Below, one piece after another: positions 10,341 through 39,110 of a stretch of DNA of 64,000 nt. The notes under the pieces are model-generated. The model did not search any database. It was not told the DNA's origin and saw only the letters and a list, made by a program, of their open reading frames with translations. Location: NCBI GenBank assembly GCA_030141605.1, contig JAQGDQ010000404.1:1-64000 (forward strand). Direction: 5' to 3'. The position numbers and the translations under genes were made by a program. The DNA comes from Tubiluchus corallicola (lineage: Eukaryota; Priapulida; Priapulimorpha; Priapulimorphida; Tubiluchidae). The stretch's first letter is position 1. The number at the start of each line of letters is the position of its first letter.

Positions 10341-10379
10341 TACTTGTATCATCTGTATCTTAAATAATGCCACAAACAA

Positions 10380-12400: not shown

Positions 12401-14815
12401 TTAACCCAGAGATCGACTACGAAGTAATTTCAGTGCATCTATCTGAGCTTTGGCTTTGGCTGCTCGATCCATCATGTGTGAAATGAAACGTTTTTGTTCT
12501 TCTCTAGCCTTTAGTAACACTTCCATTGCACTGCGTATATCCTACATGAAATTCCAGCCAGGTTTGAAAAACGTTTATGAATTTTTCTTATTAAAATAGC
12601 ATATTTAACTTACAAACTAACAGATTCTAACAACAAGCAAAAATACCTTAAAGGAAGACCGGACGACTGTTTAGACTCAATCTCATTTTAATTTACTGTC
12701 CAAAATATACATTTTCTTGCTTCAAAAAGCTAGCAATTGTTTCTTATATTTGAGTAATTAGCTTAGAAAGTTAATTAATGGTAACCGAACACAGTTATTG
12801 GTTACGTCAGAAACTAACCACAGTTTGTGCAATGGTAGGCATCTTCCCTTGTGCGTCAAGCACGTTTGCGTAAATGTTACTGTTTGACCGCATGATGTCA
12901 CGAAAATGAGCTCTACATCATATGACATCAGAAACTAACACTGCAGTTCATGATCATGGTTATCATGGTACAGCCTTCTATTTGTCGGCCAAGCGAATGT
13001 GACAAAAAGGCGCCGTTGCCAATCTTAGTAGATTCACATAGCCGAGTGTAGCTTTGAAGGTTTAACAAAATTTGAGTATCCGAGCCAATTATTATTTAAT
13101 CTAAGCTTTGATTTAAAAAAGGCTGTTTTAGTTTTCAATATTTTAGAGCATTCTTTATTCTGAACTAATGTCTACACAATCTCCCGGTTTTCCTTTAACT
13201 TATTTAGAAACACAAACACAATATATAAAGGGGGCCAAAGTTTACAATTCCCCACATACACATGAAGCAGATCAGGATTAAAGTGAGGGTTGGGATTAGG
13301 GTTAGGGTTAAGGTTGGGTTGGGTTAGGAGCAGGGTATTTAAATTGTATGGGGAATTGTAAACTTCTTCCAAAAAAATCATTCAATATACATTTTTATTA
13401 ACAAACCTGCTGACTCAGCAAACTGTCTGTGTCTCTTAAATCATTTTCTAATTGCACTAGTTCTTCATTGTCGAGTTTTGGCAAATTCTTTAAACGCTGT
13501 ACCAATTCTTTAACTTTAGTATCGGCAGCTTTAGCCGCAATAAATGCTTCGTTAGTCTGTAAAAATATTGGAGTTTTGACAAATGCATGGAATCTACTTA
13601 AGAAGATGTACCACCAAATTGGATAAGCAAACATGATTTACCATCTCCCCCTGTATAGTGATCGGTAATCATGAGTTCTTGCAAAATTTCTGATCCAGGT
13701 TGAGTAGAAATAAAAGAGCAAAACGTACATTACAAAGTATATGACACAATATGTATATGTCAGAGGCTAAGTGGGAAATCGGATATTCTGTAAGCATTTT
13801 AAATTTTAGTGAATATAAAAATAAAACAAATGTTCAACTGCTCTGATACAATTTTCCTAGGCATTTTTTACAATGCCACTTTTATTTAAGGAATGTGTGA
13901 AATTGAACCTAGTCATGTTTCAATGCACTTGCAAATTTGTGTGATTCGTTTGGTTAGCTCTTTCTCGTATCTGTCATTCCTCTTTTGTAGCGGATGATGA
14001 GAGATGCAAGCATTAAGGTATGCTGTGCAGGCTACAATTGGCAAACTCTTTCATTCAAATGGTCTAATTTTAATATGATGTAAAAAATACATACATTCTC
14101 TGCACATCAAATTTCTGTTATTAACCGCTTCTTCCAGACAATACCAGTCACAGCATTTAAACTAAGCACAACATAAAATTGTTCGTTTGAAAATTAAAAT
14201 ATAGTTTAAATTTTCCCGGAAGCACGAGTTCAATGCCAACAAACATACACATAAGCTCAATGGAGTTAACAGGCTACTGATCGCTGCTTGTTGCAAGTGA
14301 GACGTTTAAGGAAAACCAGATCCGACAGTAATATATATAAAATATTGAAAAGGGATAAATTGTTTTGTTTGCAAGAATGATTTACGTGAAAGAATTATTA
14401 CCGTGGAAATTTAATTTCACATTTATGCCATTAGTTTTTTGCTGTCATGTGCATTTTGCCATTCATACATTAGATGGACAACAGTGTCTGTATTTCGGAA
14501 TTGTGCTGTGCCTTTCAGTTCAGTTATTATGTGGCACACATACGTGGTGAAATTGCATGCTGAAAATGATAGTCAGTGCTGTACAGTAGCACTTTATCTC
14601 AATTTTAGCTTTTGTAAACATGTGCAACATGCTCATGGAATGATTCTGCCATTTTTGAAAATTACCTTCAGTTGTGATTTCATCACTTTTTGAGCTCGCT
14701 TTATATAAGTTCTTAAGCAAATAAATAATTTCTTTGGGATTATTACATGTGTAAAAATGTATACTTCAAAGCAGAGCAGAATATGAAAAATCATTGTTTT
14801 TCTTTAATTAACTAA

Positions 14816-14853
<38 letters not shown>

Positions 14854-17800: not shown

Positions 17801-20800
17801 AATGTGATGCCACTGAGTTACCAAAAATCCTCACTATTAATGCACCATTAACAAATTAGTGAAGAAAATTAAGCTTAGTATAGAACCAAGGCGCAACATC
17901 AATATAAGTAACAAAAGTACTACATTGTTATGAATATTTGCTTGTAGAACGTGCCTTGCAAAACAACTGTAGAATGCGCAATTTTTATATGGGTGGTACA
18001 CAAGTATAGAGTGAATAGTGAATGATCTAGGCTTAATTCCAGATAAAGCGTATAATGTAAGAAATCACAGATGTGACTTAAAAAATAATTTTTTTATGGT
18101 ACCGACACAAAAATGGGCAAGTTTTGTTGTGAGAAGGTCTAAATGGCATTAGATCCTGATAGATTCTACATTGGATTCTGATTATGGGTGGTAGTCTTTA
18201 CATTCCGCTTATCACAACATTACAAAGTTGTCACAATGTTGATTGACATCTTTTAAATTCACCAATCATTCAAAAATGTATCATGTTCTGACTTAAATGC
18301 AATGTCCATCAGATATCAGAAAATAATGTTGGGTAGACATTAGATTTTATGTAGTAGTTGGCTGGACATTGGTAGCTGACGGAGTGAGCTACATATAGCA
18401 TTCAGAAATATAGGAAATGATGACTTTGGAAAAGAAGTTTATTAACCTGTTCAAAAATCATTACAAACATACAATGCCATCGCCTAACTTTTAATAATCC
18501 AAAATTTTTGTTATTTGAAACTAATAAAATAATTACAGATTATTGTGCCACTAGGGGCACTTTGGCCTAATTTACCTGGTCCACGATTTTTCCGGTGTCC
18601 TCCTTCACTTTTGTTACTGAAGTGTTTAATGATTCCGTGAGATCCCGAATTGTGTCAACAAGTGTTGAAAGCTCGGTCAGCAACATGCTGTTTTGTTCTT
18701 GCATTATATTCGCATCTTGCAGTAGCTAGAAGGCATCAATTCATTATATAGTTTTCAACATGCACAGAATACAAGAATTAAGCATTTCATGAGGTGTTGT
18801 AAGTGAGTGAAATAACACTTGATAGTAGTCAGGATTAAGAATTTAATCACCAACAATGTGAAAATGTAGGTTATCTAACGACTCTAATCAATGTCTTTTA
18901 AAAATGCAAACAAATCAAAGATTACTACAAAAATAGGGAAGTGCCTGCCATATAAGTTATTTCAAAGGATTAATTAAGATTTTAATGTATATTGGATTCT
19001 TCGATCTCCTGGCTTTCAGTTGCTGGTAAGAACTGATACCTACACTGAAATCTATATGAAGCATTAATTAACAGCAAATCACACCTCATCTAATCTCAGA
19101 AATACCCAGACACTACTTATTTTTATTTCAAGCAACTTACTTAACAAAATGTGAATTTCAGAATTCTCTAAATAAGTTTAGTGTCTTGAAAACTGTCAAG
19201 TACCAGTAAAATCTACTTTGTTAGAGATACTTGCATTAACCCTTTTACTACGTAATTGCTTTTTAACTGGGCTGATTTGGTTTTCGTGTATTTCACTATA
19301 ATTTCTTGTGGTGTGTTACTAAATCAGAATCTTGTAAATAAACAAATAGTCATCTGGTAATAAACACTAATATTGAATATTAATTTTATTTGTACATATG
19401 CACACACATCTGCACACACATACATACACACCCACACAAATAAGCACATACATATATTTAGAAGCCTTTCACATTAGTCATATTAGTAATCTATAATATG
19501 TAATTATTTTATAAGAATGTAGAATAATCAACTAAACATAAGTTTCACCAACTATAAACAAGCAATTTTGCATGAGAACGTACTACACAGTACAGTATTG
19601 CACCTGGCTTCAGATACTGATTGGCTGGTTAGCAATACTTGTTGCGAAGCAACTCCAATCCCATGGCTGTTAAAGTTTTCTCTAGTGTTTTTGAATGGCC
19701 GTAGCAGTGAAATAAACAGGCATGGGTGAAATAAACTGCGCTTAGTGCCGAGCTTGGCTAGCAGTGTGTCGCCTTCCATAGTGAAAGGGTTAAAGATTAT
19801 AATAAAAACAAACCAGATTAATGAAAAGTATGGGCATGCAAGTCGCGTCTGCAATTTATTTGCAGTCTTATATTAAGTCTTTATAGAAAAGTAGTCATTA
19901 CCTTCTACAATCATATAACAACATTCACTAATGATATACACAACCCTATACCTCTTCAGCTTGTGCAATAAGTCTGACCGCTTCGGCAGTCTGGTTAGTC
20001 ATACTTGAAGTCATATTTTCCAGCCTACTGATTGCTTCAATGATATTTCCCGCTGTACGTAATACGGTTATTTCTTGAGCATGTAGTTCATTAACGAGTG
20101 ACTGAATTTCTGTATCCAGCTGAAATATCGAGCCTAAGAATAAAAATTCAAAATCACATTCATCAACTAACTTTTGAACTAATAACTTAGTCAATTTTAC
20201 CTGTCACTATGAATTGCTATAAAAGTAACTGCATGATACATATAAGAATGCTGACACTGATAATTATTAAGACATAAGGGTGCTGACACTGATAAATATT
20301 AAGACATATAAGGGCGCTGACACTGATAAATATTAAGACATATAAGGGTGCTGACACTGATAATTATTCAAAAACAATAAGCTCCCACTTCTTAAAAACC
20401 CCAGTATGATGAATAACATGAATAACAGAACACTAAATTTAAGAAACATTAGAACGAACAACCAATATGGAAAGAATTCCATTACTAAGCAAGCAATACA
20501 ACTTTGGAATTCATTAACGACATTACTAAAACACAGCAGTTCTTTATCAATATTCAAGTCTAAATTAAAAAAACATTTAATGACTCGTTTTGAATATCCG
20601 ACATACGAACACGATGATACTTACTCAAATCATAATTTCATTTTTCCTAGACCTAACTAAACTAGCTTATATTTTATTTTTTGAATTTCTAGTTCCACTT
20701 ATAGTTTAGCTTGCACCAGACGCATTTGTCCAGAACAGTGTATGTTTTTAATATGAACTAACACTGATTGTCTGTCTTTTAATATGATGGTCAATGTTTT

Positions 20801-22514
20801 AAAAAGGGCAAATAAAGATTTTACTACTACTACTACTACTAAGACATAAGGGTGCTAACACTGATAAATATTAAGACATATAAGGGTGCTGAAACTGATA
20901 AATATTAAGACATATAAGGGTGCTGATACTGATAAATATTAAGACATATAAGGGTGCATAAAATACTGATAGATATTAAGACAAATTAAAGTAAGCAAAA
21001 TCTAGAAAAAGCCTTAACTATTTACTTAGTTATTTTAGTATAAAGAGTTTAGTAACAAAACAACATAATCTTCTTAACTGCTATTTAGATGTTATTATCC
21101 TATATTTCTACAATGAATAAAAGAATTGCTAGAAAGAGGGGAAAGCTGGGATGTAATAGTCTTTTATTCCATGTAATTAAGTTTGTTACCTTTTTTATAT
21201 ATTATATTTGCTAGTAAATTTCTTACGAAAAGAAGTCTCCAAGTAATATCAATAGGGTAGTATTTTGTACCACATAAAGATTTCATCTCAATTTTGCACA
21301 ACTGTTTTGCAGTGAATGCAGAAAACACGGTAGTATGTGCAGGTAGACAAAACACTTAAAATAAGTAATACTATAGAAAAGGAAATGATATGATAATAAT
21401 TATGTTAAATCCCACGCCCATTGCCAATATAATGGCGCTAGTTTACACCACCTACTACAGACTAAACATACAGTTATAACAATTAGTAGCATGCAAACAT
21501 TAGATGATGTATTTATTGATTTGGCTATAATAAAAGATATACAACATTATATACAGCTGTTACCTCTAAGTAAGAGAAACACTTGATAAAGTGTAGAATT
21601 GGTATCAGCTATACAGATGTCATTGTTATGCATAAATCCTTCCAATTCCAGTAGCGTATGGTTTGTTGCATTTGCCACTGGGGCCACCATCGAGTCAATG
21701 ATATGAACTAGCTCAGCCAGGGATTCATTCAAATTTTTAACATTGTTGTGAACATCCTCGTTTACCAATTCGGCATTTCTAACCTTCAAATTCATGTTTA
21801 TTTTAAGACATCATTCTGTTACACAATGTTAATGTTCCGAAGAACTTTATAGCAAATGATGAACACAGAATAACAATTTGAATAGATCAGGAAAAAACAA
21901 AAAGACATAAAGGGTCTGGATAACTATGAGTAAACATTTGTTTTTAAAGTTACTAAGTCAGAAATATGCTAAAAATGGACAAAAGCTAAAAATGATGTAC
22001 AAATGAAACACTAGCCAAGAGGTAAGTAATCTCCTACAAAAGAACTAAAAGTTTAAAATCAATCATTAGGTATCTCTTACAAGCCCACAGACATTTAAGG
22101 CATCCAAGAATCACATATTTGTGTCAACAGGAGTTAGTTATGTCTTCTACAAGTAAAGCTCCACCAATCTTATAATTATTGACAAACAATCAAGTAATTT
22201 TATAAGGATTACACAGCGAGTATATATAAAAAGATCAGTAATACACTGTACTTCTTTTAATTTTTGGGTAAACGCATCACAATAATCTGAGCAGCTCACA
22301 TGAATTTCACCAAGTCTGTCCAAGAAAAGTGTACTTACATTGTTAACAAGATCCTGCACATGGTTCGTAATACTGCGGAGTCTGGTACGAAAACGAGGTA
22401 AATCAGAAAACATGCTCTGATTGCGAATCATCGCTATGAGTGACGTAAGGTTGTCTCTCTGCTCTTGGAGTAGTTGAACTTCAGTTAGCAGATTTGAGTA
22501 ACACTCTTCACATT
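12401..22514 (-). CDS. Laminin exons 18-27: coiled-coil long arm and C-terminus
   Basis: About 580 residues of heptad-rich helix that would trimerise with partner laminin chains. Exon 18 opens with ECEECYSNLL, like the gamma-chain entry to the long arm. Several N-x-S/T sites follow. Only isolated cysteines occur (one in exon 19, NDICIADT; one in exon 25, RRCENIEP), so the Cys-rich beta-knob found in beta chains is missing. The last exon (12401-12541) ends AKAQIDALKLLRSRSLG then TAA, without the cysteine near the C-terminus by which human beta and gamma chains are disulfide-linked. Introns here are 200-1900 bp and carry most of the repeats in the gene. Confidence 0.9.
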
Positions 22515-25500
22515 CTGCACAAACAATTGCAAAGAAATTAGTAGCATATATTCACATAGCGACATTGAAATTTAACAGCCTTTTTTGACTCATTTACCTA
22601 AAACGAATGCAGCTGAACATGATGTGAGAACCTAGTTAATGAGACAAGTTTAGTTCTTAATCTCTACACTACACCTGCAACACTGTTAACAATTCACCGA
22701 AACAATTCGCCACTAGAATGGTTTAAAAGACTACAAATGGTTTCCATTTTGCCTTTAACGCTGCAAAAGCAGCCTAATGTCACCGAAAATGACTTCTATT
22801 GGGGCACGAAGACAAATTATTATTTAGAGCTCGATAATTACCTACGCATCCACTAGGTCCAAAATTCATGAAGTTCAATTGGCAGCGGTCGCACTTCAAT
22901 CCTCCAACATTCAATTGACATGTACACTGTCCTGTGTCCATGTCACAAGCAATGTCCAACGAGCCAACAGTATCACAGTTACATGCTAATAGATAACAAG
23001 AAAAATTGTTGGAATTTGCAAACAAATGTGGAATTATATGCATAAAAAGACCATTTCCACTTTCCACTTCTCACTTGAATAGACGGACCATAAGTTCACC
23101 AATTTATTCAGTAGCAACTAACCTACTAAGGCCTCCCATATAATAACATGAAATCCAACTTGTAAATTGTCTAGCAATTATTTTCTGCTTTAAGTATGAC
23201 ACCCTTAATATTTACATGAGAATACAAAAGATGTAATAGGGTTCAAATGTTGAGACACAAGCATGACTTGAACAAAATAAAACCTTTGCAAGAAGAGTGC
23301 TGACAATGGAAGTGTATATATCTTGCATTGTACAAACGATAAATTTATATTTGGATATGTATAGCTAAACTTGTAATGCCATTTTTTTTGTAATCTTACG
23401 TTTGCAGCCGTCTTGTGATAATCCATAGAAACCTCGTTCACATACGGAACAGTCTGGTGGCTGCACATTTGCAGCACATAACTCACACTTACTGCCGGTG
23501 GTGCCATTTCTGCAGTTTAGACATTCACCAGTGTACGGATTACAGTCAGGAAGTGGCTCAGTCATTGAATTTCCTACAGCAATAACAGTAATTGTACTAC
23601 GAAGATTATAAAAACGCCCATTCACAAATTAGCTCTAGTTGTTATATTCGTATATTTCTTTAGGTTAGCTAAAGAACTCTTGGCTAACTCTTGGAACTGT
23701 AGTTTGATACTATCATGGCATAAAGAAATGTTATAACTTTTAAATTAAACATTAGATTGAAAGATGAAAGAGAAAACTGAATTCTGCTATCACAAACTAA
23801 AAATTACCAATGGTTTGAAAGCACCATAATTCGATCGATATGGAAAACCTGCAACATAACATTTCTAAATGATGCTTTGAAGATTAGAAAAGTATAAATT
23901 TTCCAAAATATTTTTTGCAGTAAATTAATGCACAGTCCAATTAAAATTAAAGTATAGAAAGTAACGATAACAAAGACTGGAAAACCAACAATAATTCAAC
24001 ATCAGAAAGATGTGCTAACATAATAAATTAGTAAATTAAAAGTTACATTGTCTAACAAACTGCACTAGGTACTGACAAAGATGGGAAAGGTTGCTATTTC
24101 ATTATTCTAAACATTAGTTTACTGCATTTAAACAATGACTATATGCACATGAGCACAAAAGTAGCGTACATTATACATGTAATACCTGAACAATCGCATT
24201 GTATGCAGGTGTCAAACTGTGTGCCATTTGTGATCACACGCATGTATCCTTCCTGACACGCTGTGCAAGAATGACCCTCAACATTGTTCTGAACCTGACA
24301 ACTGCAGTTCTCTACTGAAGTCAGCATGGGAATTGGATCAGAAAACTCGTCAAACAAAGTCTTGTTAGAGAAGACCACAGTTTCTAAAACCACATTGTTG
24401 ATCTGAGCCTCATCTTGTAAGAGGTCTTTTATAATATACAAGTTAGTCATGCTAGCCAGTAAGCGCTGAAATTCAAAAGAAGTAGGTTGTCGAGTATCAC
24501 TTGTCTGGAAATTATGCTCGTGCAAAAAGATACTAACACGCGTAGGTCGCACATTTGATATCTCGATAGCATTCAATGAATGCCAAGCACTGGTGTTGTG
24601 ACCTTGAAAAATCAGAACCCTGGTGCCATTAACTGTTACACGTCTAACTGTGGACATCATATCAAACATGATATTTTGTAAGTATGAGTATAAGTTATTA
24701 CCAAGATACCTGAATGGGGCGCTAAAGTATGCCAACCCATCCACAAAAGCAACATCCCAGTCATTGGTAGACACAGTATCTATGGTTTCCGGGAAATATC
24801 CAGAAGCAGACTCGCACTCGAAAGCATGTCCAAAACAGAAACAGCTCTGGCATCCATTTGGATTTAAAGGATTGAGATTGAAGGTGCCTGGAGGGCAGCT
24901 GTCGCACTTAAGACCTTCCACATTGGGTTTGCAATAGCATTCGCCACTGAACGTATCACACGTTTCATTCACAGACCCAATCATGCTACAGTTGCATGGT
25001 AGGCATCCGCTGGACGAAAATGAAAAGTAGCCATCCATGCATCTGTCACAATGAACACCATCTATTGTGGGCTTGCAAACACAACCATTTTCTGTACACT
25101 GCACAGACATGCTGCCTTCAGTACTGCACAGACATTGTTCGCAGCCATTACCGGTGTTGTATCCAAAATAGCCTCTTATACAGGCACTGCAGCGCAGGTC
25201 ATTCATGAAGTCCAGACTGTTGTTTAATCTGGCTGTAGCTACTCCAGGCTTGCAAGGACATTGTCCGGTATCGTAATCACAAACTAAAGTTTCAGATCCA
25301 GTTGGCCTACATTGGCATGGTTTGCAGCCTGAAAAGAAAATACACAGGTTTAGTTTTGGATTAATAAATGTTACTAAAACATTTGTTCATTTATAATCAT
25401 AATCTGCATTTGAAAATGGTACTTTTAAGTTTGTTCAAGTTAAACAAACATTTTGTCCTTATAATTATACCATGTGAAAGAACATTATTTTGTTGCTTTT

Positions 25501-28500
25501 AAATTTTTGTTAAAACAATTGGCTCTATTGCAGATTTAATTTCATGGACTATCTTAAATTTTCACTGAGTTTGTTTTAGTAAACATACATGTGCAAAATA
25601 TGTATCAACTGCCTCCCACTCTATCAGTCTAAATTTTCAATTAAGGTGTAACAAAGTTTATGACTACAAGTTTTTGCTAATTATTACAACTATTAATTGC
25701 ACACAACAGAGACCACTCACTTGTTACGTACTAACTAAAACATAATTATTTAATGTATGTTCGTGAAAGCTTCATCATTTTAAACTGTACATTGGTGATA
25801 TTTGCTACAAAAATTTTACTAATTCAATCTCAGATTGATGAGGAAAGCTCACATGAAACTCAAAAGAAAAAAGTAAGAATAACAAATATAATACTACACC
25901 TTCACTGCTGAATCCATAATATCCCGGTTGACACCTGTCGCACTGGCGACCTTCAACCCCTCGCTTACACGAGCAAGCTCCGCCCACCATGTCACAGACA
26001 GGGTTTGCAAAGGCAAGGGTGCCTGTAGTATTGCATTCACATGCTAAAAAATGATCAACGAGTTTAGTAGTTAGTCTGTAGACATTTGTACTGATAACTG
26101 TTAGTGCTTTTCAAAACTTGTCAAGTCCAGGTGTCGTGGAATCTTGTTCGAGCAGCACAATGAAATTTATCCAATAATTTAATACAGTAGGCGCTGCTTA
26201 ATAGACTTACTTTGGGACAGTGTTTTGACCCAATTAACCGACTGAACCTATTAACCGATGGGTGTAATATTACTGGTACAGTAGTATGAGTCACCAGCTC
26301 ACTATGCATTGCAAAGGTTTTTAATGAATTTTAGGAAAGAAGTTATACCTAAATTCCTTTGTGCAGTTAAAAATTAGAAAAAATATTCTAAAATAATAAT
26401 TTGTATAAGTGAATTAGCAATAAATTGAAATTTTCTACACTTTTCTAAACTACAGTGTAAGTGTTCAAACTGTTGGTGATGTTTCCCCGCAAGTAGCTTC
26501 GTCTGTAGTTTCGCCCAAGCTCCCGCTTGTTATAATTGTGATGTACTTACTGTACTGTACCTGTGTCCCTGGCATAACAGCAACATCTAACTGATTAAAT
26601 TTTCTGGCAAAGACAACCAGAGCTCCAAAAGCAAACTGCTAAGCAAGCGATTAAATGTTTAGCTTCCAGGAATTCTTGGGTAACGAGGTTAATTGCAGTG
26701 GACGGGTGGGGGTCAAAACAAACCAATAGGCTAGCATAATTAGCCTATGCTAAATGTTCCTGCTTACAAACAAAACAGTATTTAACATGATTGTTTCTAC
26801 GTATATTACAGGACAAAAGCAAACAAGATAACATACAATTCATGAAAGCTTATTAGTCACACAAAAGTATCTTATCAAAGCACGTGAAGCAAAAATATTG
26901 AGTCAATTATGCACTCTCATTCAAATTTTTACTTCTGATAAGCTTTAGGATTTGAAGTAATAAACTGTGATCTACAGGACATGAATTCTGAAATTTGTTT
27001 AATCAACAACTCAGTAGATAAAGTACAGGCAATAGTTGGTCACACAGAGCAAATCAATATCTTAAACTACGTAAGAAATAAATTGAGCAGTGGAAAATTA
27101 CTGTATCTATCGAGACTGCTGCAGAATAGGCATTCAAGTAAAATCTACTAATTAATACAACAATCAACTGAAGGTTGAAATTTTGCAAAATGAAGCAATT
27201 GTAAAGGTGCAAAGCAGCCAAAACCTGGTGCAGTTCCTCCTAAAACTCCTTCTCTTAGTGTCACATTCCATGTGTCGTGTAAATACTGAGTGTTGTCTTG
27301 ATAAGTCTTTTGATTCGTTTGTGCACATATTTGTACCAGAAATTAGTTATTGCCAGTGTTGGTTCTTTGGAATGATCAAAAAGCATAAATAATATAATGT
27401 GAAGCTTTAATGTCAAAATTATGACACTACTGGTAGTTATTATGGTTACACTGTCTATTAAAACTAAACTGTTTTTCATAATTTCTCATTTGTAAGCAGT
27501 GAGAATGAATAATGTACAATTAACAAGATACACATAACAAGATGTTTAATATATCCTAGGATTGGTGGTCAATTTAAAAGATGTATAATGATTAATTTAA
27601 ATCTTTTCAGAATAGTTCAATTTCTTGCCATTAAATTTTATTTTTGTGTTAAGATCTACAATAACATATTGATGTTATCGATTTCAACAACACTCATTAT
27701 CTTAACCTACTGATCACTTTTTCGACTATTCACAATAACAACATACGTTGAGATCCATTGTGTATTTCAGCACCGAGAGAAAAGAATAATTTGCGACAAG
27801 CTGTGTCTTCCATGGCTTCTTGTCTGGTTGCTGCAGAACCCAGTTTTTCAATGCAGTCGTCATAAATCATCACTTGAGCACGATCTAACATCAACATAGA
27901 ATAAAACCTAAACAGCTTTTAAATTGCAATTGCAATTAAGTTGAGAGGCTGGTATAAATATGTCTGTAACGCTACAGTTAAGCTTAGTTACAAGAACATT
28001 AGCAAATCAACAAGTCAAACAGAATAAAAACATAATTTGGATAACTGCTAGTAGTACTTTCTAGTAAGAAACTCAAACTGTTTTCTCATCAAATATTAAC
28101 ACAAGTACACGCATACATTTTGTACACCACATAATAAATGAGTTTCTTGTGTCAGCTGTTAACATTTTCAAATTCTATGAAACAGAAAAATATAATTAAA
28201 TTTTTAACTAAAAGATTTGTAAAATTCTATAAAACACAAAGCTATAACTATAATCAAGCCCGTAACGCGATGTTTACGGATGTTACGCATGAATTGAAAA
28301 AAACGCGGTAGAGATGGATAAAATTTGTATCAGTTCTTTTTAGCTGTAAAAGGTAGAGCAAAATCTTGAATAGTGAAGTTCGCTAATAAGCAAATAAAGA
28401 GTTAAATACATGCAGAAACATAAACGTACCAGCTCGCGCGTAAACCGTTAAATTTTTAGGATCTGGAAACAAGACGAGTGAATCGATGATCACAGTGATG

Positions 28501-31500
28501 TTTGGATTCTCATTTGGAGGAGCAACACTGAACTGTAGCGTGAACTGGTACAAGCACCGTGCATCTAACATCAATGGTTCTTGTGGCTTGGTTACAAAGT
28601 GAGATTTCCCTTTTAGAAATGCATAAAGAAGGTTAATTCAAAACAATCCAAACCTTAATACATAGCATCTTGCAGGTACAGGTGATTAATGTCAGAAATG
28701 ATGGACATTTGAGTGAATATTCTATGAAATTCATTACATTCAAGAGCTGTATTTTTATAACCACAAAAGATGTACTCAACAAATAAAAAAAATCATTAAT
28801 GAACATTCTGGGTGCTAGTCACAGAAAATACACACTCAAGATGTAAAATTGGTGCAGTAGATGTGATGTGTTGTGACAGTATGAAAAATGGACTAATAGC
28901 CATTGTTCTGCAAAGTGAATGTTATTGATTAGTGCGGTTTTGTAATAAAAAACAAACATAAAAAATAATTACACAATTTACAACACTATACTGTCATTTT
29001 AAGGCAGCATATTTCACCACTAATTGATGTATAAATTCATATTAATAAGGAATTTTGTTAATTACGTTTATTAATGCAAGAAAACTTTAGTTATCAGTGC
29101 AATAGGTTGCATTTGCCACAACACATTTCTAATATCATGCATTCACATATTCGAACATCAGCTTGGAATTTTACTCCTTCAAACTGTTAGTGCCACTGGC
29201 CGTTGGTGGCTGGTCAAGAAAAATGTATAATGTACTAATTACTTAAGAGTGCAGTCTCAAACGAATAGAAGATTTTATATATAAAGCAGAGCTTCAATAT
29301 GTGCCTTTCATGTACAAAAAAACTTGATAACAAGGTACCAATAGCAAAATTCAAACTGCTAAGTTTATAATACTCAAACAGGCAAAACTGTTTCGGACTG
29401 TACTGTTATAAATTAAGCATTACAATGCTGCTAAAGATTTAACACCCACCGTATTCTATATCCACACTCGGCTTGCTTTTGCTGCTGCAACATGTGATTT
29501 GACAAAAATCAGTCTATTATTATAAAACAAAGAAACTAGTACCTTGGCCAGGTGCTAAACTGAAAGACAGACTTGGATGATTACGGTCGCTATCACGACA
29601 ACGGAAGGGACCTTGATCACTCCCGGGCACATTAACCTCCTCGGCATCACCAAGGACAACTGTTCCAAAAGATATACCATCCCATTTGGTTGTACCATTA
29701 TAAGAGTAACGAAGTCCGACTTGGTATAGCCTGAAATTCCACTGACAGTTATAGCATAGCCAAAATAGTGACCTTAGAGCCTATAGATGATAGAAACCAT
29801 AAATCTAGTTAAGCAAGTAATTACCATTCAAGTGCTGGCTGCGGTAATCCGGAAACGGTCATGAATGTTAAAAATGTATTTGCACCACATTCTATATAGT
29901 AGATATCAGAAAAGTACTGCTGTCGTCGAAGTGCAGTAGCATTGGTGCACTCTGAAAACTCTGCAAAAATTTTTTACCCTCCAATAAAAGTTCTGTAATA
30001 TGGACTTTCTTGCCAGTGTAGAAGTTGTGCTGTTATAATTTCTATGGTATGTGTAAACTAGTAGTCATTTAATAGTAAGGATTCATGCATTATGCCTCCC
30101 TGCTAGACAATTGTGAACAAACAAAAATCACAAGCAGTTCACGTGATGTAAATGTAATTAGGCATTTGAATATTCATAGATGAATTGCTCCACTAATCTG
30201 TCTGACTTTCAGTTTTAACCATTTGAACAAGTTGATGAAAAAGTTGCAGCTTTTCAGGTTTCAAGTAAAAATAATAAACCCGTGTTACACTTTTAATCTT
30301 ATGTTTTCGGGTAAAACTTTTTGTTACATATGCAATTGATTATAAATGACTAAAAATGTTGGAAGTAGCATCTAAGGACATCTCATTAATTATTATAAAA
30401 TGAACTACCATACCTGTGAGGATGTTGCAAGCCAAGGTTCAACTACAAATAGGAAAGTATAGAGACTTCAAAAAAATATTGAAATTTCTATAGAAATTAT
30501 ACCGTGGAAATAACATTGCTTGCACTACAATGCACTAATGTTCAATTATAAGTGTAATGTATATGACATTCAAGTAAAAACTAGATAATGCAAATTATGC
30601 ATTGTAAACATTGTGCACTGGCGTACTGCAGCATAATGTTTGGTTTTGATCATTTAAACACGTTAAGGAGTATAAATGACTACTAGCCACAGCAGCCAGT
30701 TACAAAAATATAAAATGGTGCACTACCCAGTTACTGTTCTTAAGGAGTTTGTTAATTAGTCTACAAAGTTTCGAAAGGTGCCAAAATGGACTTAGAAAGG
30801 TTGAACTACTGTGGTGTTAGTTCTCTTATTGAAGTGCCAAAATGCTGCACACAACTAACATTAAATGAGTATTAGCCTATACACACTATAGAATTTGCGG
30901 CAGCACAGCTTTTACACAAGCAAACTTAAAGTCAGTATGGCAAAAGTGTGATTGTCCAGATGACAAATTATTTTTTACTATTGCATTAAGTGAAGGAGTG
31001 TGCATATGGCTACTATAATAGTTACTATAATTATTATATCTTAAAGTACACAGTTTCTATTTGTATCACACATTTTTGTCTGAATAAAAACATAATACCA
31101 AATGGCTTGTACAAGAAGGAATCATATGCAGGTATAAAATGTGATGATGCAGTCTGATCGCATCTCAGTCCCTGTATGTTTGGTCGACATTCACACTGTC
31201 CTATCTGTTCCTCGCATGTTGTGACTAAAGCAGCCCCCAAGTTGCATCCACAAGATTCACAATCCTAGCCAAGTACAGGCATAGAACTAAAATATCTTAA
31301 TGTAGAAAATAATCATTTTGAACGTTAACGGTTTCTTTGTGTGCTTGAACTTTCTAAGCTTGAACTACTTATGACCAATATGAAACCAAATAAGTCAAGA
31401 CACAATTTCACGAATGTTAGAAATTTTATATGCTAACTTCAGCAATCTTTTGCTGTGACACTGCAAGTAATAACAGCACAAAACATTCTTTACAAAATGT

Positions 31501-34500
31501 TTTGAATGTTAGAAGAGCTAACTTTACATGATCACCTTGGCAATATTTTGATATAACACATCACTCAAAACATTCTGTCAAAGGTACCACAAAATCATTT
31601 TTTATGCTTTTTGAGTATATCAGAATGCATTTCATATAGACAATTAACATACTGTGCACACACATTATATGATTATATCCAGTTTGTCAGCTATTAGTAA
31701 ACCTGTTAGTACAAAGTTCTTTACCTGTTTATTGTACATGAAAAAGTTATGCAGGTACCAGAAACCAAGGCCAGAAAACACTAGAGATTTCTGTAATCAT
31801 CTTTGGCAGTAGCCTCCTTATTAACATTGTAAGGCTAGCATGTTTAAAAATGCAAAAGACTATAAGCAAACTTCAAAACAACCTTTCCAAAGAAACACAG
31901 GTCATATAAACTATGATTGGCTTGCTAATGCCATCTTTAAAAATATGTCATTTTAATAAACATACACTGCCAAATCGCTGTGGAAACGTATGATAGCCAT
32001 CCTTGCATTTGTCACATTTTAGAGCTGTAATGCCCATTTTGCAAAAGCACTGCCCACTGGTTTGCTCACATGCGTTATTAGCACCAACCGTTCCGCGTGT
32101 GTTACACTCACATGCTGAAAAATAATCATATTAATTGAGCCATAATCTGAAAAAAGTGATTTTTAGTCAGTCGTATGGCTACAGCACTTCAAATGTTGCT
32201 ATGCCCCGTGTTACATTAGTTATACAAGGCACTTATCAGTTCATAATAGAAAAAATGCGAAAGTACTGGTACTACTAGTACTAGCAAGAGAGCAGACTGG
32301 AAATTATCAAAACAGGATTGGAACACGATGTACAGTGAATGAAGAAGGTTAAAAACAAATATACTGGCATGTATTAGAAAGTAAAGTAAGAATATTTTGA
32401 ATGATAATGTTTGTGTCAGATGCATCCATTATATCTATTGCCCACTGAAAATATGAACAGCAGAAAACAAACACACCAAAATTTCATTTGTGATTCTGTT
32501 CATTGCATTTTTAGCTGCTAACCATAAATGTCAATTTCATCAAAATAGCTAATTGGTCATTTATTAACTTAACTGAATGATTATAAGCTAAATCTTTAAA
32601 CTTAGATTAATATACTAGATATTGTGAGTTACTGATTTGTTCAATGTGAATGAAATGCAAAATTTTCTAAAAGTCATAAACATAATGTAATAGATAATAT
32701 CGCAGCACTGAGTAAATTTTTTTGTCTGTAATTTGTCCCGATCTGTGCATAATTCCAAAAAGCGAGACAATCATTAAAATGAAATTTCAACATTAACGGT
32801 TTTTTCGAACACTATAAAAAGATTAATTATTAATATAGGGTTACTAAGTGTAAGTACACTCATATCTTGGTTTGCCGGACAAACGTGGGGAGACATCGGT
32901 CAGAATTTGCTGATTGTCTGTATTTACCAGTACTAAGCTAATACAGTAGGTGCCATGTATAAGACTCACGGTAATGTAGAATCAATCAATTAATTGTCTC
33001 AAAAACATCTAGTACGGGCCGCTCCTATGCAAAAGTATACAAAAACTGACTCAAATAACTCCACATAATTGACTCTATATTTTTATATAAAGAGATATAC
33101 ATGTGGTTACACTGATGTAATGATGTGTCTGTAGTATGCGGGACTTTTTAACGGTTCCAGATTTTGTCCGATTCTTCTGTTATCCGTAAAAGCGAGGTCC
33201 GGCAAACTGAGATACGAGTGTATTCACATTTACTTTGCACACTATAAATTGTGTCAGTTAGCAAGTAAACTGGCTTGAATAACTTACGTTTGCATGTCCC
33301 TATATCAGGCTCTACCAGTAATCCATAAAATCCACCAGCACATTCATCACATTTCTGACCAGTAATACCAACTTGACAAAGACACTGTCCAGACATCTGA
33401 CCAGTTGCACTGTCAGATTCAGCCAAGCAGGTGGCATTAGGATCCAATGTTCCCAATGGTTCACAGTCACACTCTGAAAGATTTATTTTCATAAATATGT
33501 TGTTATTAACTGAAAGGACCGACTTTGCTACCGCACTCCCATATGGAGCCTTCACATCACCTGCAGCAAAATTTCTACGACTTTTCCTCTACCTTTTACA
33601 ATTCTAATTTGGTGCTTACCTGCATGGACAAGTTTTGATCAACAACGTAAAAGATAACTCTTCTAATAAACAAACCCAAACAATATGGACCCTCATCGTG
33701 TAGACCTGGTTTATCTGGTATGATGACAATTTGGTATGTCTCCAGTTGTCAAGTAGAATTAGTAACACCAACAATCAATGAACACATGACAAGGTTAGCT
33801 GGCTAGTAATTGCATACCAATTACATATGATGTACAGGCTACAACACATGACATGCCTCTATGCATAACACCTAGCTAAGTCAGGTTCCTCACATTTTTA
33901 TTAAACTCTGTTCTGGCAAAATCATTTTTCAAAACATGGATCAGGCACATTTCAGTCTGCCTGCTCACTCTACATTATTATTGTCATATCACCTAGTTGT
34001 TATCTGAAGCTGCAGCATTCTTAATAACGTGCAAGATAAAGGTCGTAGTGCAAAGCAGTCAAGACAGAAACTGTTGAAAATAAATTGCATGCATCAAAGA
34101 TAACATTAGATGTCTTACAACTTAAATTAATCAGGAAATGGATGTAAGTAAAACTACATGTTATCTACTTCGAAACAAGTCATCAGGCACTTTAAGTAAT
34201 GCTACTAACTGAAATTCTGGTTAATGAGCTCTTAGTTCCAAAACTTCACAAGAGACTAAAGCAGGAATTTATTAACATTAATGAAATGGACCCCAACAAA
34301 AATTTGCTTTATTTGCTGTTAAGGCTGCACCATTCAATTGATTAGAAAGTTTATTAGCAAACTAATACATCTTAAGTTTAAAATTTAAAAACGAAACAAC
34401 TGTCACATTTAAAAGTGAAAAAACTGTCACATCAATGTAGCTGCAAAAATGACAGTATATACTATTTATTTTAAGTCACTGGCCATGACAATTATTGTAA

Positions 34501-37500
34501 TAATGTGCAAGTATTTACCAGCTCATTCTCAACTAGGAAAAAGTAAATTACAATTTGCTCTGTATTTAGATAATAGCACTGTGGGTGGAGTGTTACAAAA
34601 ATACGGTATCTGTCCAGCCACATGTTCATCATTGCAAGTGCCACGAACAAAACCTATTATCATACCTATACATATGTTCGTATCATTAAGTTGCAGGCTT
34701 TCATTTCTGTAGAAACCAGGCATACACTTGTCACAGTTAGTCGACATCGTATTATCTGTGCAGTTGATGCACACATCAGTGCGCATAGTGGAGTTATACT
34801 CGCATACAGCAGAATGGTTATTACAGTCGCATACTGCAAATTAAATCAATTAAACATGTAAAAATTACAAAAACCGTCATCAGGTTTACATTTTACTTTA
34901 AAGGCTACAGTATTTGTTCAGTTTAACTGCATTTGGCACTAATCTTATTTAGAATGGTAGAAGATATATAAATCTACAAGTTGTAATTTTGCTTATAGTA
35001 GAAACTAGCCACTAGATTTGAAACTTCAATTCAATAACAGACTTGCCAAGCCATTTCTTTCTGCTTTGCATAAAGGTAACACCAAAACATTTGATTTGTG
35101 AAAATAAAACGAAATATGTCACAGTTTCAACCAAGTACAGGAGTAAAAAAGCTAGAAGATGCACTTACGAAGGCACTGATTTGCTTCACCAGCTCTCAAA
35201 GGAAGATAGCTTCCTTGCACCCAAGGTCTTTGATTATAAAGTGGCCGGCAAACCTCGCAGTCCACACCAGTTGTTTGATGAGAACAAGTGCACTCGTGCT
35301 GCCCCCTGTTCACTTCTTCACATTTTCCATGGAGGTTGCAAAAACACCTAGACAAAAATAATAAATTTGGACAAGGAAAAGGTCAATTTAAACAAAAATG
35401 ACAACTAGAATTATTTAATGTCAATTCATTCTTCTACCGTCTTTGTTCATTTTGAATGAATTCACCACATGTTAGCATCAAGATGAGTAACATTATAATT
35501 ATTCATAATTTAAAAATTACTGTATTAATGATGGAAGCACACTTATTGAATTTTGAACCCAAACTTGTCTGAATAAAAGGAAATGTGAAAAAGTAAGGAC
35601 AAAGCCTGGATTTGAATCAGTGCCTTTCCTTCAAACAAGTTTGGTTTTAAAATTTTATAAAGGAGGGTTCATTTTTTACTATTAATATTAACCTTGATAT
35701 AAAGATTATGAATAATCAATTAATCATCTATGGATGGTTTTAGGCTTTAATTTTAAATTTTTTTGTTATTATAATAAAGCAATATATATGTTGCTTTATA
35801 TATTATTATAAAGCAAAAAAGCATGTATAAAAAAGTAAATAATGCTTATAACACAGATTAATTCTTAATGAGAAGAAAAATGACACTAACGTCTTAATAA
35901 TATTTTTTATTAATGCAATATCATATACATTGCATTATATATTGTTCCAACCTTTGTTCACCAACATTTGTTTAGTGCATGCAGCCTGAATAATACTAGC
36001 TGTTGCACTTTTAGTTATTTCAATGATTTAAATTTCACATTTAACCATGAGGTGCTATTTTTATTGTTTTTTCTTTAATGCAATGTGTTCTGGGTATAAA
36101 GGTATTAGCATTACTGTTGCCTTACTCAGTTTTAATTAACTGACTCTCTTATTAATGTAACAGCTGCAGAAACCAACTGTATAAGTACACAAGGTGCACC
36201 ATGTAATTTAAGCAATAATCATATTATTGACACTATGAGCACACTGTAGACAGACTTGACATATTATAACATTTTGAAATACAGGTTTTGTTTTCACTTA
36301 ATACTATTGCAGCAAAACAACATGTCACTCACCTGCCTGTAATGTTGATATTAGAAATTGCATAATAATATTTTAGAAATGACTGCTGACTGCCGAATAT
36401 TTCACGTCCGTCAGTCGCTGGATGAAGTAGCTGAATACGCAGATCAGTGAACACCAGAAAATCCTAATAAAAATGTATGATTACATGCTTTAGAATTGAG
36501 CATTGTCCATAAACAAAATTATGTTGTCTTATGTGCAAATGAACACAATTTTCCCATTTAAGTTATAAAAAAACAGAATGCAAATGTCTCCCCTTATAAA
36601 TCATGTTCACCTGAAATTCTTGGTTACGTCCCAACTCCAAGTAAAGCTGGTTCTCACTTCCACCACTTTGAGCAAGACGCAAACGTTCACTGATTGGTAG
36701 CACAACTTGGCCTCCAGACATCGGCATGCTGCCGCTGTACTCGTCTGTACAAATTACTGCGGCCAAACTAGATCTGGTAACAAACGGTCTCGCTCGTTGA
36801 TCGCGAAAGTATTTCTGGCAGTTGCGCTGGGAATAGTACTGCAACGGCTCCCATGTCTTCCCATTGTCTTTCGATTTAAGTAGAGCCATCTCTTGAGGCC
36901 GACCAGAGTTGAAAGTTATGATAACGTCATCTCGTAACTCAAACTGTTTGCCGTATGACAATGTCACGTTTATCTCTAGATTGTCAGGATAATTTGACCA
37001 AGTAACTGACTGCCACCAGGTTGTGTTACCATCGGCATCTACAACGAAATCGGGTGGGTGGCGTTTTGTAGCGACTCGTTCGTTACAAACGTCACATTCT
37101 GGCTGAAGGTCATCCTGCAAAATGTCGTTAACTTAAAAATTTGCTGCAAAATTTTGAAAACTTTTTGTCAGTAAGTACAGGGATAAATTGCTACTTTGCA
37201 TGCATTTAAACATCTAGTCTAATATGATCATGTATTCAAATGTAACTGAGCTTGGTACAGATAATTTAAGAAGACAGACACCAAAACAGCAACTAACACC
37301 AGAGGTCCAGAGCCCAGTAATATCACATAATATAATATTATATAATAATAATAATCACACAGGTATTAGCAAACCATTAATTGTCAATCATGAATGCTTT
37401 GGTAACAGAATTTGCTATCATTATCATTTCCAATATTACATACACATAAAAAAAGCTAAAACATACATGAAACATTGGCTTATAACTATAACATGTATTT

Positions 37501-39110
37501 TTTACACTAAAATAGCAAAAGTTGCTTTATACATCCTATATGATCCATTACAGGTTTCTTTAAAATAAAGATATTTCACAAGGACAGTGTTTCTATGCTT
37601 TACTATAAGAAACAACTTTCAGATTATATTTTGTACACTACGTAGGATTTTGTGATATGCAAACTTATGAAATCAGAAATATTATGTATCTATGTGCTCC
37701 TTCTCTATGAAACATGCAAAGGAAGCAAGCTTTTAAAAATAGGTGCCAGTGTGGCATTAAATCTAATCATTATAAAACTATCAGCACTGTCATTACTAAA
37801 TTTGTCTTCATAGAATAAATGATGATTAAACATTATTGGCCTCAGTATGCTTTTTTATGTCATTGCGTGTTGGAATGTAGTGCACATTAAAGAGAATTTA
37901 AAAAGCGGCTAAGTGAAAGTCATTTTAAACAACAATAATAAAAAAGTCCACAGTTTCAAACCAGAGTAATCATAGCCTCCTCATAGGTCACCAACCTTTG
38001 TTCAGTGCATGCAGCTTGAGTAATACCAGCTGTTGCACTTTTAGTTATTACAGAAGGATAGCTTGCTATAAACCATAATGGGCTGCAAAGCTTTACAAAA
38101 TAATGTGCTTTGAGACTAGAACTCGTGCCAATACGTGTGCTGGCCAACAAAAAAACTTTATTTAATTCAAAGTTTTATATTTTCAACAATTCAGATCACA
38201 GGAAGCTGAATGAGATATAAGTTATATGGCATATGACAAGGTCATGTACTTTCTGGTAATGTTGCAAATTTTTGAAATTATATCTGTTGAAGCATATCAA
38301 TGAAGATTTCAATCAGCCAGTGGTTTAATAGTTATCCAATTAGTTAGTGCAGAATATATGAAGCACTGCTAAAGCATGAATCACACTCAGTCTATCAGTC
38401 CCAGTCAATTCATCAATCAATCAGCTTGGAGGTGAAAGAGCGAACATTTCAAGTCATCATCGAATACCCATCATGCCTAATGCAGATCCTGGGCAGGCAG
38501 AATTCTAAAATAAAGAAATCTGCCCTTAACATAGGAGGTAAACATACCAGTTAATCCAGTAAACATAGTAGACTGCTATGCGAGTGGTTTTCCAGCACCA
38601 CTTCTGTATTCAAGCATACTTAGCCGAATAAACAAGGAGCATTTAAACTCTTACCAATGTGCAGAAGTCTTCTGGTCCCGTTTGACCGCACGTTGCTTCC
38701 GGTGGGGTCACTTCAACATTTACAACTGCACCCCCTACCAAGTTAAGCACCTCTTCACTTCCACATGCACGAAAAATTGTCTCACCTGAAGGAAATATAA
38801 TGTATCGAGAGAAACATGATATGAGTTAACGAGAAAACAATGTTAATGAAATCTATATTATAAAAATTTGCTTCAGTTACAAATGTTGGCAGCCCCTTGT
38901 TGTACCATCACTAACACATTACCAAAAATAATAGTACTCTAAGCTACGTTTTTGATGAAGCTACGCTTAAGCATCACCTAATTCAGGTCTTTCCTTACCA
39001 GAGGCTACAGTCTCTTCGCATTCATTTGTAAAAATAGCTGGTAAAGTATTTTGTCCAGTCGAAGGCTCAGTTAGCAGCAACATCAAACAAGCTAGTATCC
39101 ACGAGGCCAT
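12401..39110 (-). CDS. Laminin chain with mixed beta/gamma architecture, 27 exons, 1904 aa
   Basis: Secreted basement-membrane subunit. Exons in order: 39110-38999, 38785-38655, 37114-36611, 36463-36333, 35347-35169, 34833-34666, 33473-33288, 32114-31966, 31264-31099, 29960-29825, 29730-29543, 28609-28430, 27884-27747, 26043-25900, 25328-24186, 23573-23400, 22985-22842, 22514-22339, 21783-21564, 20133-19952, 18725-18576, 17686-17573, 16701-16464, 16123-15945, 15194-15003, 13556-13407, 12541-12401. They total 5715 nt and phases agree at every junction. Order: signal peptide (1-20), LN (about 32-292), LE1-LE4 plus the first part of LE5, L4b (about 557-789), LE6-LE9, LE10 interrupted by L4a (about 1028-1158), LE11-LE12, coiled coil (about 1325-1904). 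There are no LG domains, which excludes an alpha chain. Human beta1 and gamma1 are 1786 and 1609 aa. The least certain junctions are the AAG acceptors at 28610 and 21784, and the donor after 31099. Confidence 0.9.
13238..13365. repeat. Small inverted-repeat element with telomere-like core
   Basis: Lies in the last laminin intron. The ends are perfect 17-base inverted repeats (AAGTTTACAATTCCCCA at 13238-13254 and its complement at 13349-13365). The interior at 13284-13328 is a run of TTAGGG-like units (GGGATTAGGGTTAGGGTTAAGG and variants). The 128-base form suggests a MITE or foldback element. I could not see a target-site duplication. Confidence 0.65.
14820..14854. repeat. (AT)n microsatellite
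   Basis: Uninterrupted TA dinucleotides for about 27 bases, followed by short imperfect AT units, inside the laminin intron between exons 25 and 26. Confidence 0.9.
17131..17240 (-). repeat. Possible LINE 3' tail
   Basis: Read on the minus strand, the segment ends with TTATGCTCGAAATAAATAAATAAATA, a short tandem AATA tail like the 3' ends of several non-LTR retrotransposon families. No reverse-transcriptase frame is recognisable upstream, so it may be only a 3' UTR relic. It lies in the intron between laminin exons 22 and 23. Confidence 0.3.
19392..19460. repeat. CA-rich low-complexity tract
   Basis: Imperfect CACA/CATA repeats (CACACACAT, CACACCCACACA and similar) within a laminin intron. 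Confidence 0.7.
20239..20369. repeat. Minisatellite, 34-bp unit (left block)
   Basis: Four units of about 34 bp share the core AAGGGTGCTGACACTGATAA then TATTAAGACATA. The core recurs at 20251, 20283, 20317 and 20351. The array continues at 20841 after a LINE fragment. Confidence 0.85.
20370..20840 (+). mobile_element. 5'-truncated non-LTR retrotransposon (LINE) 3' end
   Basis: The frame at 20370-20660 encodes a typical LINE reverse-transcriptase C-terminus: QAIQLWNSL, then a Leu/Ser stretch, then SIFKSKLKKHL. After the stop, a 3' UTR of about 180 bases ends AATAAAGATTTT followed by (ACT)n. The fragment sits inside a 34-bp minisatellite, interrupting one unit cleanly, so its ends are well defined. 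No target-site duplication is evident beyond one or two bases. Most of the element (endonuclease, RT core) is missing. The exact clade is not determined. Confidence 0.8.
20841..20990. repeat. Minisatellite, 34-bp unit (right block)
   Basis: Continuation of the 34-bp array after the LINE fragment, with units at about 20855, 20889 and 20923 and a decayed unit to about 20990. Confidence 0.85.
22842..23573 (-). CDS. Laminin exons 16-17: LE11 and LE12
   Basis: Exon 16 (23400-23573) completes LE11 with TGECLNCRNGTTGSKC and an extra Cys-containing loop. Exon 17 (22842-22985) encodes LE12 (PCNCDTVGSLDIAC then GQCTCQLNVGGLKCDRC). Both have phase-1 boundaries. The ECLNC form of LE11 resembles LE repeats late in beta short arms. 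The last residues GCV join exon 18 to give the Cys-x-x-Cys-x-x-Cys-Tyr hinge. Confidence 0.92.
24186..26043 (-). CDS. Laminin exons 14-15: LE6-LE10 with embedded L4a domain
   Basis: Exon 14 (25900-26043) encodes LE6. Exon 15 (24186-25328, 1143 nt) encodes LE7, LE8, LE9, the first half of LE10 (CFCFGHAFECESASGYFPE), an L4a/laminin B domain (approximately 24365-24765; landmarks WDVAFVDG, YFSAPFRYLGN, VLIFQGHN, VSIFLHEHNF) and the second half of LE10 (CSCQVQNNVEGHSCTAC). L4a typically interrupts an LE repeat in just this way in alpha and gamma chains. Both exons start and end at phase 1. LE7 is atypical: about 12 extra residues separate GV from the Cys-x-x-Cys, and the usual G-x-x-C-D-x-C is altered. 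Confidence 0.92.
27747..31264 (-). CDS. Laminin exons 9-13: partial LE5 and L4b (LF) domain
   Basis: Exon 9 begins with LE5 (GQCECRPNIQGLRCDQ), then passes into PAYDSFLY, matching the beta-chain transition from LE5 into the L4b/LF globular domain. Downstream landmarks are YQVGLRYSYNG, the Pro/Leu/Met-then-Cys segment LMLDARCLYQFTLQF, VIIDSLVLFPDP (beta chains have a similar 'DSL' block), YDDCIEKLGSA and DTACRKLFFSLGAEIHNG. The exons are 31099-31264, 29825-29960, 29543-29730, 28430-28609 and 27747-27884. L4b is normally diagnostic of beta chains. The first half is divergent, and a short missed exon between 29961 and 31098 cannot be fully excluded, although phases already match. Confidence 0.85.
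31966..35347 (-). CDS. Laminin exons 5-8: LE repeats 1-4
   Basis: Four laminin-type EGF repeats, one per exon. LE1 (35169-35347) starts CFCNLHGKC and has a long tryptophan-containing last loop, as in beta-chain LE1. LE2 (34666-34833) has the short form CDCNNHSAVC. LE3 (33288-33473) has an extended second loop ending GQMSGQCLC, again as in beta chains. LE4 (31966-32114) is canonical. The spacing and loop lengths match the LEa segment of laminin beta more closely than gamma; this comparison is from memory of the families. Confidence 0.92.
32857..33220. mobile_element. Non-autonomous DNA transposon (MITE), pogo/Tigger-like ends
   Basis: The terminal inverted repeats pair CACTCATATCTTGGTTTGCC at the left with the complement of CACTCGTATCTCAGTTTGCC at the right, both continuing GGAC. 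Each end is flanked by TA (32855-32856 and 33221-33222), as for Tc1/mariner-type insertion. The 364-bp interior has no coding frame. It lies in the laminin intron between exons 7 and 8. Assignment to pogo/Tigger rests on the TA duplication and the TTTGCCGGAC-like end. Confidence 0.75.
35961..36019 (+). repeat. Dispersed repeat, copy 1
   Basis: About 60 bases (CCAACATTTGTTTAGTGCAT onward to CTTTTAGTTATT) closely match a second copy at 37990-38049. Both lie in introns of the laminin LN region. Type unknown. Confidence 0.7.
36333..39110 (-). CDS. Laminin exons 1-4: signal peptide and LN domain
   Basis: Exon 1 encodes a hydrophobic signal sequence (MASWILACLMLLLTEPSTGQ). Exons 2-4 encode the N-terminal LN domain, which in family members polymerises laminin short arms into a network. 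Visible LN hallmarks are ATCG followed by PEDFC, the ECDVC pair, TTWWQS, GRPQEMALLKS, KTWEPLQYYS, the ICTDEYS block and the closing KYYYAISN. The LN carries both beta-like and gamma/netrin-like sequence features, so it alone does not assign the chain. Exon 3 (36611-37114) is 504 nt and in phase 0 at both ends. Confidence 0.93.
37990..38049 (+). repeat. Dispersed repeat, copy 2
   Basis: Near-identical partner of 35961-36019, sharing AGTGCATGCAGC, then TAATAC, then AGCTGTTGCACTTTTAG. Same orientation, about 2 kb apart. Confidence 0.7.

Follow-up and report, generated by a model that had tools for sequence, protein, structure and literature searches.

A laminin chain of the priapulid Tubiluchus corallicola with a netrin-G-like LN domain, a diverged L4b domain and a gamma-like coiled coil

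The window analyzed here, by which we mean the whole 64,000-nucleotide stretch of DNA from the priapulid Tubiluchus corallicola, carries a laminin gene on its minus strand that runs from a start codon at 39110 to a stop codon at 12401-12403. The stop-to-stop frames of both strands were read and exons were then chained with a codon and splice-site model; the 27 joined exons comprise 5,643 nt of coding sequence and predict a chain of 1,880 residues with no internal stops. Downstream of the laminin gene, at 7895-10394 on the minus strand, lie the frames of a multi-exon rhodopsin-family GPCR (7tm_1, 80 bits for 7898-8524; the remaining frames by eye), and a rhodopsin-family GPCR with one open frame of ~395 codons (7tm_1, 101 bits) is located at 54285-55469 on the plus strand. 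A 34-base tandem repeat forms two separate arrays within intron 19 of the laminin gene, at positions 20238-20368 and 20846-21001. At gathering scores, Rfam returned no matches in the window.

The domains of the laminin chain follow one another along the minus strand. Exon 1 (38999-39110) holds the ATG, a predicted signal peptide recognized by eye (MASWILACLMLLLTEPSTGQ) and the start of the mature chain. Exons 2-4 (36333-38785) encode an LN domain that is netrin-G-like (PF00055 at 36683-37108), and exons 5-8 (31966-35347) the repeats LE1-LE4, of which LE1 spans 35347-35169. A truncated LE5 and, after it, a diverged L4b (LF) domain similar to that of the C541 chain described below are encoded by exons 9-13 (27747-31264). 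LE6 lies in exon 14 (25900-26043; PF00053, 51.2 bits), whilst the 1,143-base exon 15 (24186-25328) encodes LE7-LE9 together with LE10, which is split by an L4a domain (PF00052 at 24373-24729, 56.5 bits). LE11 and LE12, placed by the PF00053 profile search and the gene model, occupy exons 16-17 (22842-23573), and exons 18-27 (12401-22514) encode a CEECY start and a coiled coil of 571 residues that has four cysteines and no beta-knob.

The first Pfam run took a 25-exon model, in which exons 10 and 19 were absent and exon 9 was cut short. It gave Laminin_N (183 bits), EGF_laminin (229.8 bits over 8 stretches) and Laminin_B (50.9 bits), all well above cut-off, as well as EGF_LMN_ATRN (50.8 bits) and LAMININ_IV_B (20 bits), and there was no LG family among the five families listed. 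The order given in a preliminary description of this DNA, namely LN, LE1-5, L4b, LE6-10 with L4a in LE10, LE11-12 and coiled coil, was thus borne out, as was its statement that L4b and L4a occur in one chain without LG domains, with the L4b match being weak. With its LN domain, LE array, domain IV and a C-terminal coiled coil that opens on a CxxC motif, the chain is a laminin by its layout. The five C-terminal LG domains of a laminin alpha chain are missing from the 25-exon model, and the pairing of L4b, albeit weak, with L4a in a chain that lacks LG is that of a chimeric beta/gamma laminin.

All 26 introns of the 27-exon model are GT..AG and the frame is kept across every junction. The model is a composite: a bonus weight was placed on exons 9, 10, and 19, exon 22 was taken manually from the first chaining run, one zero-length exon was left out, and two chaining runs begin exons 20 and 23 at different positions. 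Exons 9, 10, 19, 20, 22, and 23 are consequently less certain. As a coding control, we counted codons at three other loci only, where exons had been located with a table first trained on the window gene. The gene region scored 113 on the gene strand versus 2.8 on the opposite strand, eight of eight block shuffles scored 1.1 to 5.7, the reversed sequence 4.8, and the two strands of 40001-64000 scored 3.6 and 2.6. The control recovered 13 of the 27 exons exactly and at least one shared end in 19 of them. When the DNA of exon 15 was searched against the assembly, its one match was itself. The single 27-exon frame proposed earlier is therefore upheld by the model, its GT..AG introns and the coding control. 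The matching phases at 26 junctions, which had been put forward as an argument against merged genes, are indeed all in frame, but as an argument they are partly true by construction because any chained model keeps frame. Judged from its sequence, the gene looks real, and would encode a full-length basement-membrane protein.

We searched the assembly (343.5 Mb, 2,344 contigs) with profiles PF00055, PF00052, PF21199, and PF00053, followed by exon chaining. The genome encodes a beta chain on C2320, with an L4b domain, a cysteine-rich knob and an end cysteine, and a gamma chain on C177, with the NIDPNAV motif and an LPDGCF tail. Alpha-type LN domains are found on C162 (by tree) and C1849 (by eye). 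A second chain with both L4b and L4a (Laminin_B, 79.8 bits) lies on C541 at 675121-701513 on the minus strand; no LG domain was seen as far as the chain end was read, and a candidate C-terminal exon ends in ICQTP, that is, with an end cysteine by eye. On C1787 (855547-866926, minus strand) there is an alpha-like chain composed of LN, LE, an L4b-like domain, LE, L4a, LE, coiled coil and five LG domains, the last of which set it apart from the window chain (25-exon model, Pfam). It consists mostly of two frames of 1,401 and 1,376 codons. Its L4b-like domain had no Pfam L4b match and, of three other such domains compared, was above chance only against that of C541. C1787, C2138, and C2264 give equal scores for their LN, L4a, and LE matches and look like uncollapsed copies. 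Because the C541 chain and the alpha-like C1787 chain of the same genome also pair L4b, or an L4b-like domain, with L4a, the rule that L4b marks a beta chain, on which the preliminary description had relied, is too simple. Further LN-containing loci are a gene on C669 (72001-92000, plus strand), usherin-like as judged by eye, in which LN, LE and FN3-like stretches follow one another; a netrin-1-like gene on C968, identified by tree; and an LN-LE gene on C1954 (47772-56269, minus strand), one of whose LE repeats carries a Ser/Thr-rich insert. Elsewhere in the assembly, Hox homeodomains with 86-97% identity to the Antennapedia homeodomain are located on C1217, C412, and C2201, and as judged by eye the C2201 homeodomain is followed by a Ubd-A-like peptide, for which Pfam gave no confirmation. 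The homeodomains and the peptide indicate a bilaterian and probably a protostome, the latter on the strength of the peptide. A search of the assembly for cox1 returned no matches.

Compared with chains in the PDB, the LN-LE1 region of the window chain was closest to netrin-G1 (233 bits) and netrin-G2 (227 bits). The next matches were netrin-1 at 145 bits and below, gamma1 at 138, alpha5 at 118 and alpha1 at 91 bits, and beta1 was the weakest laminin, with 87 and 80 bits. The corresponding queries from C177 and C2320 led to gamma1 (400 bits) and beta1 (436 bits), respectively, that from C541 led weakly to gamma1 (106 bits), and that from C1787 led to alpha1 (86 bits). Since all four sibling-chain queries go to gamma1, beta1 or alpha1, the likeness to netrin-G is particular to the window chain.

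The trees, which took in PDB chains and chains of this genome only, placed the window chain with netrin-G1 and netrin-G2 at a support of 99/99 in a 16-row alignment, and at 99/98 in a 12-row alignment from which the long or incomplete rows of this genome (C541, C1787, C162, and C1954) were left out. In the 16-row tree the C1954 LN grouped with C1787, at 84/87 only. Five alternative placements, with groups named after the first tree had been seen, were submitted to the AU test. It rejected placement of the window chain with gamma (p 2.5e-5), with gamma plus the netrin-1 group (p 0.005), with beta (p 1.6e-5) and with alpha (p 8.5e-4); placement with beta plus netrin-4 was not quite rejected (p 0.051). 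By eye, the window chain and the netrin-Gs also have three indels in common: LE1 contains an SYLPL insert, ELxDDV is longer by one residue, and a loop in the second half of the LN domain is extended. The window LN has a laminin-like PMSGG stretch, which corresponds to PLTGG in gamma1 and is absent in netrin-G; this patch presumably matters for polymerization. The window chain therefore has an LN-LE1 region of netrin-G type, as judged by sequence, sister position and indels, in a protein of quite another length. Netrin-Gs, adhesion proteins of the brain that bind NGL receptors, are short and have neither L4 domains nor a coiled coil, whereas the window model runs on through L4b, L4a and coiled coil. 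Vertebrate netrin-Gs, as stated in passages of PMC4706652, are GPI-anchored; the window chain, for its part, is a complete laminin.

The coiled coil of the window chain, 571 residues long, compares with 601 in the predicted gamma and 600 in the predicted beta chain of the same genome, and the power at the heptad period is 0.064, versus at most 0.033 in 200 shuffles. Residues 212-550 of the coiled coil are collinear with that of the C177 gamma chain; the two comparisons gave 32.2 and 25.0 bits, whereas the highest-scoring of 200 register-keeping shuffles reached 18.9 and 3.9 bits. There was no comparable signal against the coiled coils of the C2320 beta chain or C541, and a search of the PDB yielded no matches at E values up to 1. 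The window L4a is about equally close to that of gamma, for which an incomplete domain was used, and that of C541. On account of the coiled coil and L4a comparisons, we place the window chain, apart from its L4b, on the gamma side. However, it differs from the C177 gamma chain, which showed no L4b and has both NIDPNAV and the cysteine-bearing tail, in carrying an L4b and lacking both motifs; if the last exon is right, the C-terminal cysteine and the acidic tail of an ordinary gamma chain are missing. With the C2320 beta chain it has in common the succession of LE1-5, L4b and then LE repeats, but that chain has no L4a match and possesses the cysteine-rich knob and C-terminal cysteine, whereas the window chain has no knob, and its LN, unlike that of C2320, is not of beta type. 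The PDB comparison, the sibling-chain controls and the AU test led us to reject an ordinary beta or an ordinary gamma chain.

The L4b domain is the weak point of the observation, being diverged in sequence. With exons 9 and 10 complete, it matched PF21199 with a score (23.8 bits, E 3.6e-5) below the curated Pfam cut-off of 27 bits, and the match was confined to the last third of the profile. Compared with the C541 L4b, it scored 9.0 and 8.6 bits, values reached in neither direction by any of 200 shuffles, of which 157 and 126 returned a score. A profile built from three other L4b or L4b-like domains gave 8.6 bits against the window L4b (best shuffle, 4.0 bits) and at most 0 bits against four L4a domains. 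The likeness of the window L4b to the genome's own beta L4b was at chance level, with 4 and 8 of 200 shuffles reaching the scores, and a single-sequence hhalign of the domain gave no result. The C541 L4b, for its part, is clearly similar to the beta L4b (31-32 bits), and its first part scored 33.1 bits in Pfam. We nevertheless retain the assignment because the window domain is similar to the C541 L4b and sits directly after a truncated LE5, as does the L4b of the C2320 beta chain.

A further chain type was reportedly described by Fahey and Degnan in 2012 as common to Amphimedon, Nematostella and sea urchin. Chimeric beta/gamma-like laminin chains are described for the sponges Oopsacas minuta and Amphimedon queenslandica in passages of PMC10280926; the sponge set consists of two chimeric beta/gamma chains, an alpha-like chain and a gamma-like one. 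In our reading of that text, "chimeric" denotes L4b plus L4a without LG. The window chain can be likened to the sponge chains by this description only, and differs in belonging to a bilaterian that has beta, gamma and alpha-type chains beside it. L4b and L4a in one chain, which had been presented as unusual, are thus not so as such: given the chimeras in print for sponges (PMC10280926, as excerpted), the pairing has very probably been described before. C541 has it too, and C1787 has it with an L4b-like domain. No beta/gamma laminin from a protostome was found in the titles and abstract openings searched, which covered few subscription journals, and one may already be in print. What the window gene adds is a full-length member, probably of a protostome, whose LN is of netrin-G type and whose coiled coil is gamma-like, alongside beta, gamma and alpha-type chains.

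In vertebrates, the NIDPNAV motif binds nidogen, the end cysteine of gamma forms the beta-gamma disulfide, and the gamma tail contributes to integrin binding. We think it likely that the window gene encodes a secreted, full-length chimeric beta/gamma laminin on the gamma side, and that netrin-G is a short descendant of such a chain; our best reading is of an ancient laminin of the gamma side that has retained L4b and is sister to netrin-G. The coiled coil would then occupy a gamma-like position within a laminin trimer, and the short arm would project, so that the LN domain could make laminin-type or receptor contacts. Since the chain lacks NIDPNAV, it would not be expected to recruit nidogen in the usual way, and since, if its last exon is correct, it lacks the end cysteine and acidic tail, it would neither form the usual beta-gamma disulfide nor contribute to integrin binding through a gamma tail. 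Vertebrate netrin-G would be a GPI-anchored descendant from which everything after the first LE repeats was lost. Passages of a review derive netrin-G1 and G2 from a beta-gamma ancestor (PMC9788559). Netrin-Gs are called exclusive to vertebrates in parts of PMC4706652, and are said in parts of PMC4000137 to have no invertebrate orthologs except for one ascidian gene.

More tentatively, the alpha-like C1787 chain with its LG domains and the C541 chain could combine with the window chain, at the gamma position, into a second complete laminin trimer that exists beside the ordinary one. Netrin-G would be the last remnant of this second trimer in the vertebrate lineage, and part of the sponge chain set would represent the same ancient trimer. 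The coiled coil of the window chain has no clear likeness to those of C541 and C1787 (the highest score, 3.3 bits, came from a 98-residue segment of C1787), and this mismatch, together with the results for the C1787 L4b-like domain, counts against the idea. It is unlikely that the netrin-G likeness merely reflects retained old features or a pull exerted by the model, and that the chain is a divergent gamma paralog with an extra L4b. Such an origin would suit the gamma-like coiled coil and L4a, and an LN identity to netrin-G of only 39-41%, versus 33-35% to netrin-1, gamma1, and netrin-4; however, netrin-G1 is ahead of gamma1 by 95 bits, the indels are shared with netrin-G, the grouping persists when the long rows are left out, and the gamma placements were rejected.

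The preliminary description had offered an ancestral beta/gamma-like form and a lineage-specific hybrid as explanations, and C541, C1787 and the sponge chains make the former the likelier of the two. Recent domain shuffling could have put L4b into a gamma gene, and exons 9-13 do encode it as a block that might have been inserted as such. We regard this as improbable, as C541 and C1787 also place an L4b or L4b-like domain ahead of L4a, chimeras are reported in parts of PMC10280926 from two sponges of different classes, and the window L4b is diverged rather than fresh. A decaying, non-functional gene would fit the diverged L4b and the missing C-terminal cysteine, but is very hard to reconcile with a stop-free frame of 1,880 codons over 27 exons and a coding signal far above that of shuffles. 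Finally, it is scarcely credible that two neighboring genes or two contigs were joined by the model or the assembly: some splice sites are weak (exon 9 donor GTATTA, exon 19 acceptor TTGAAG), but the window contains no N letters, frame and GT-AG hold at all junctions, a signal-peptide-like start in exon 1 is matched by a coiled coil at the end, and, as the best evidence, a merged gene is unlikely and was rejected because C541 combines L4b and L4a in one gene and C1787 combines its L4b-like domain and L4a, there within the one uninterrupted frame of 1,401 codons.

On the preferred reading, the window chain may be a living relative of the laminin that gave rise to netrin-G. Among the sequences compared, the closest relative of netrin-G is an invertebrate full-length laminin, and the proposed derivation of netrin-G from a "beta-gamma ancestor" becomes testable, both as to what the ancestral LN domain bound and as to what was lost. 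In addition, the gene suggests that a bilaterian can possess beta/gamma laminins next to chains of alpha type, beta and gamma.
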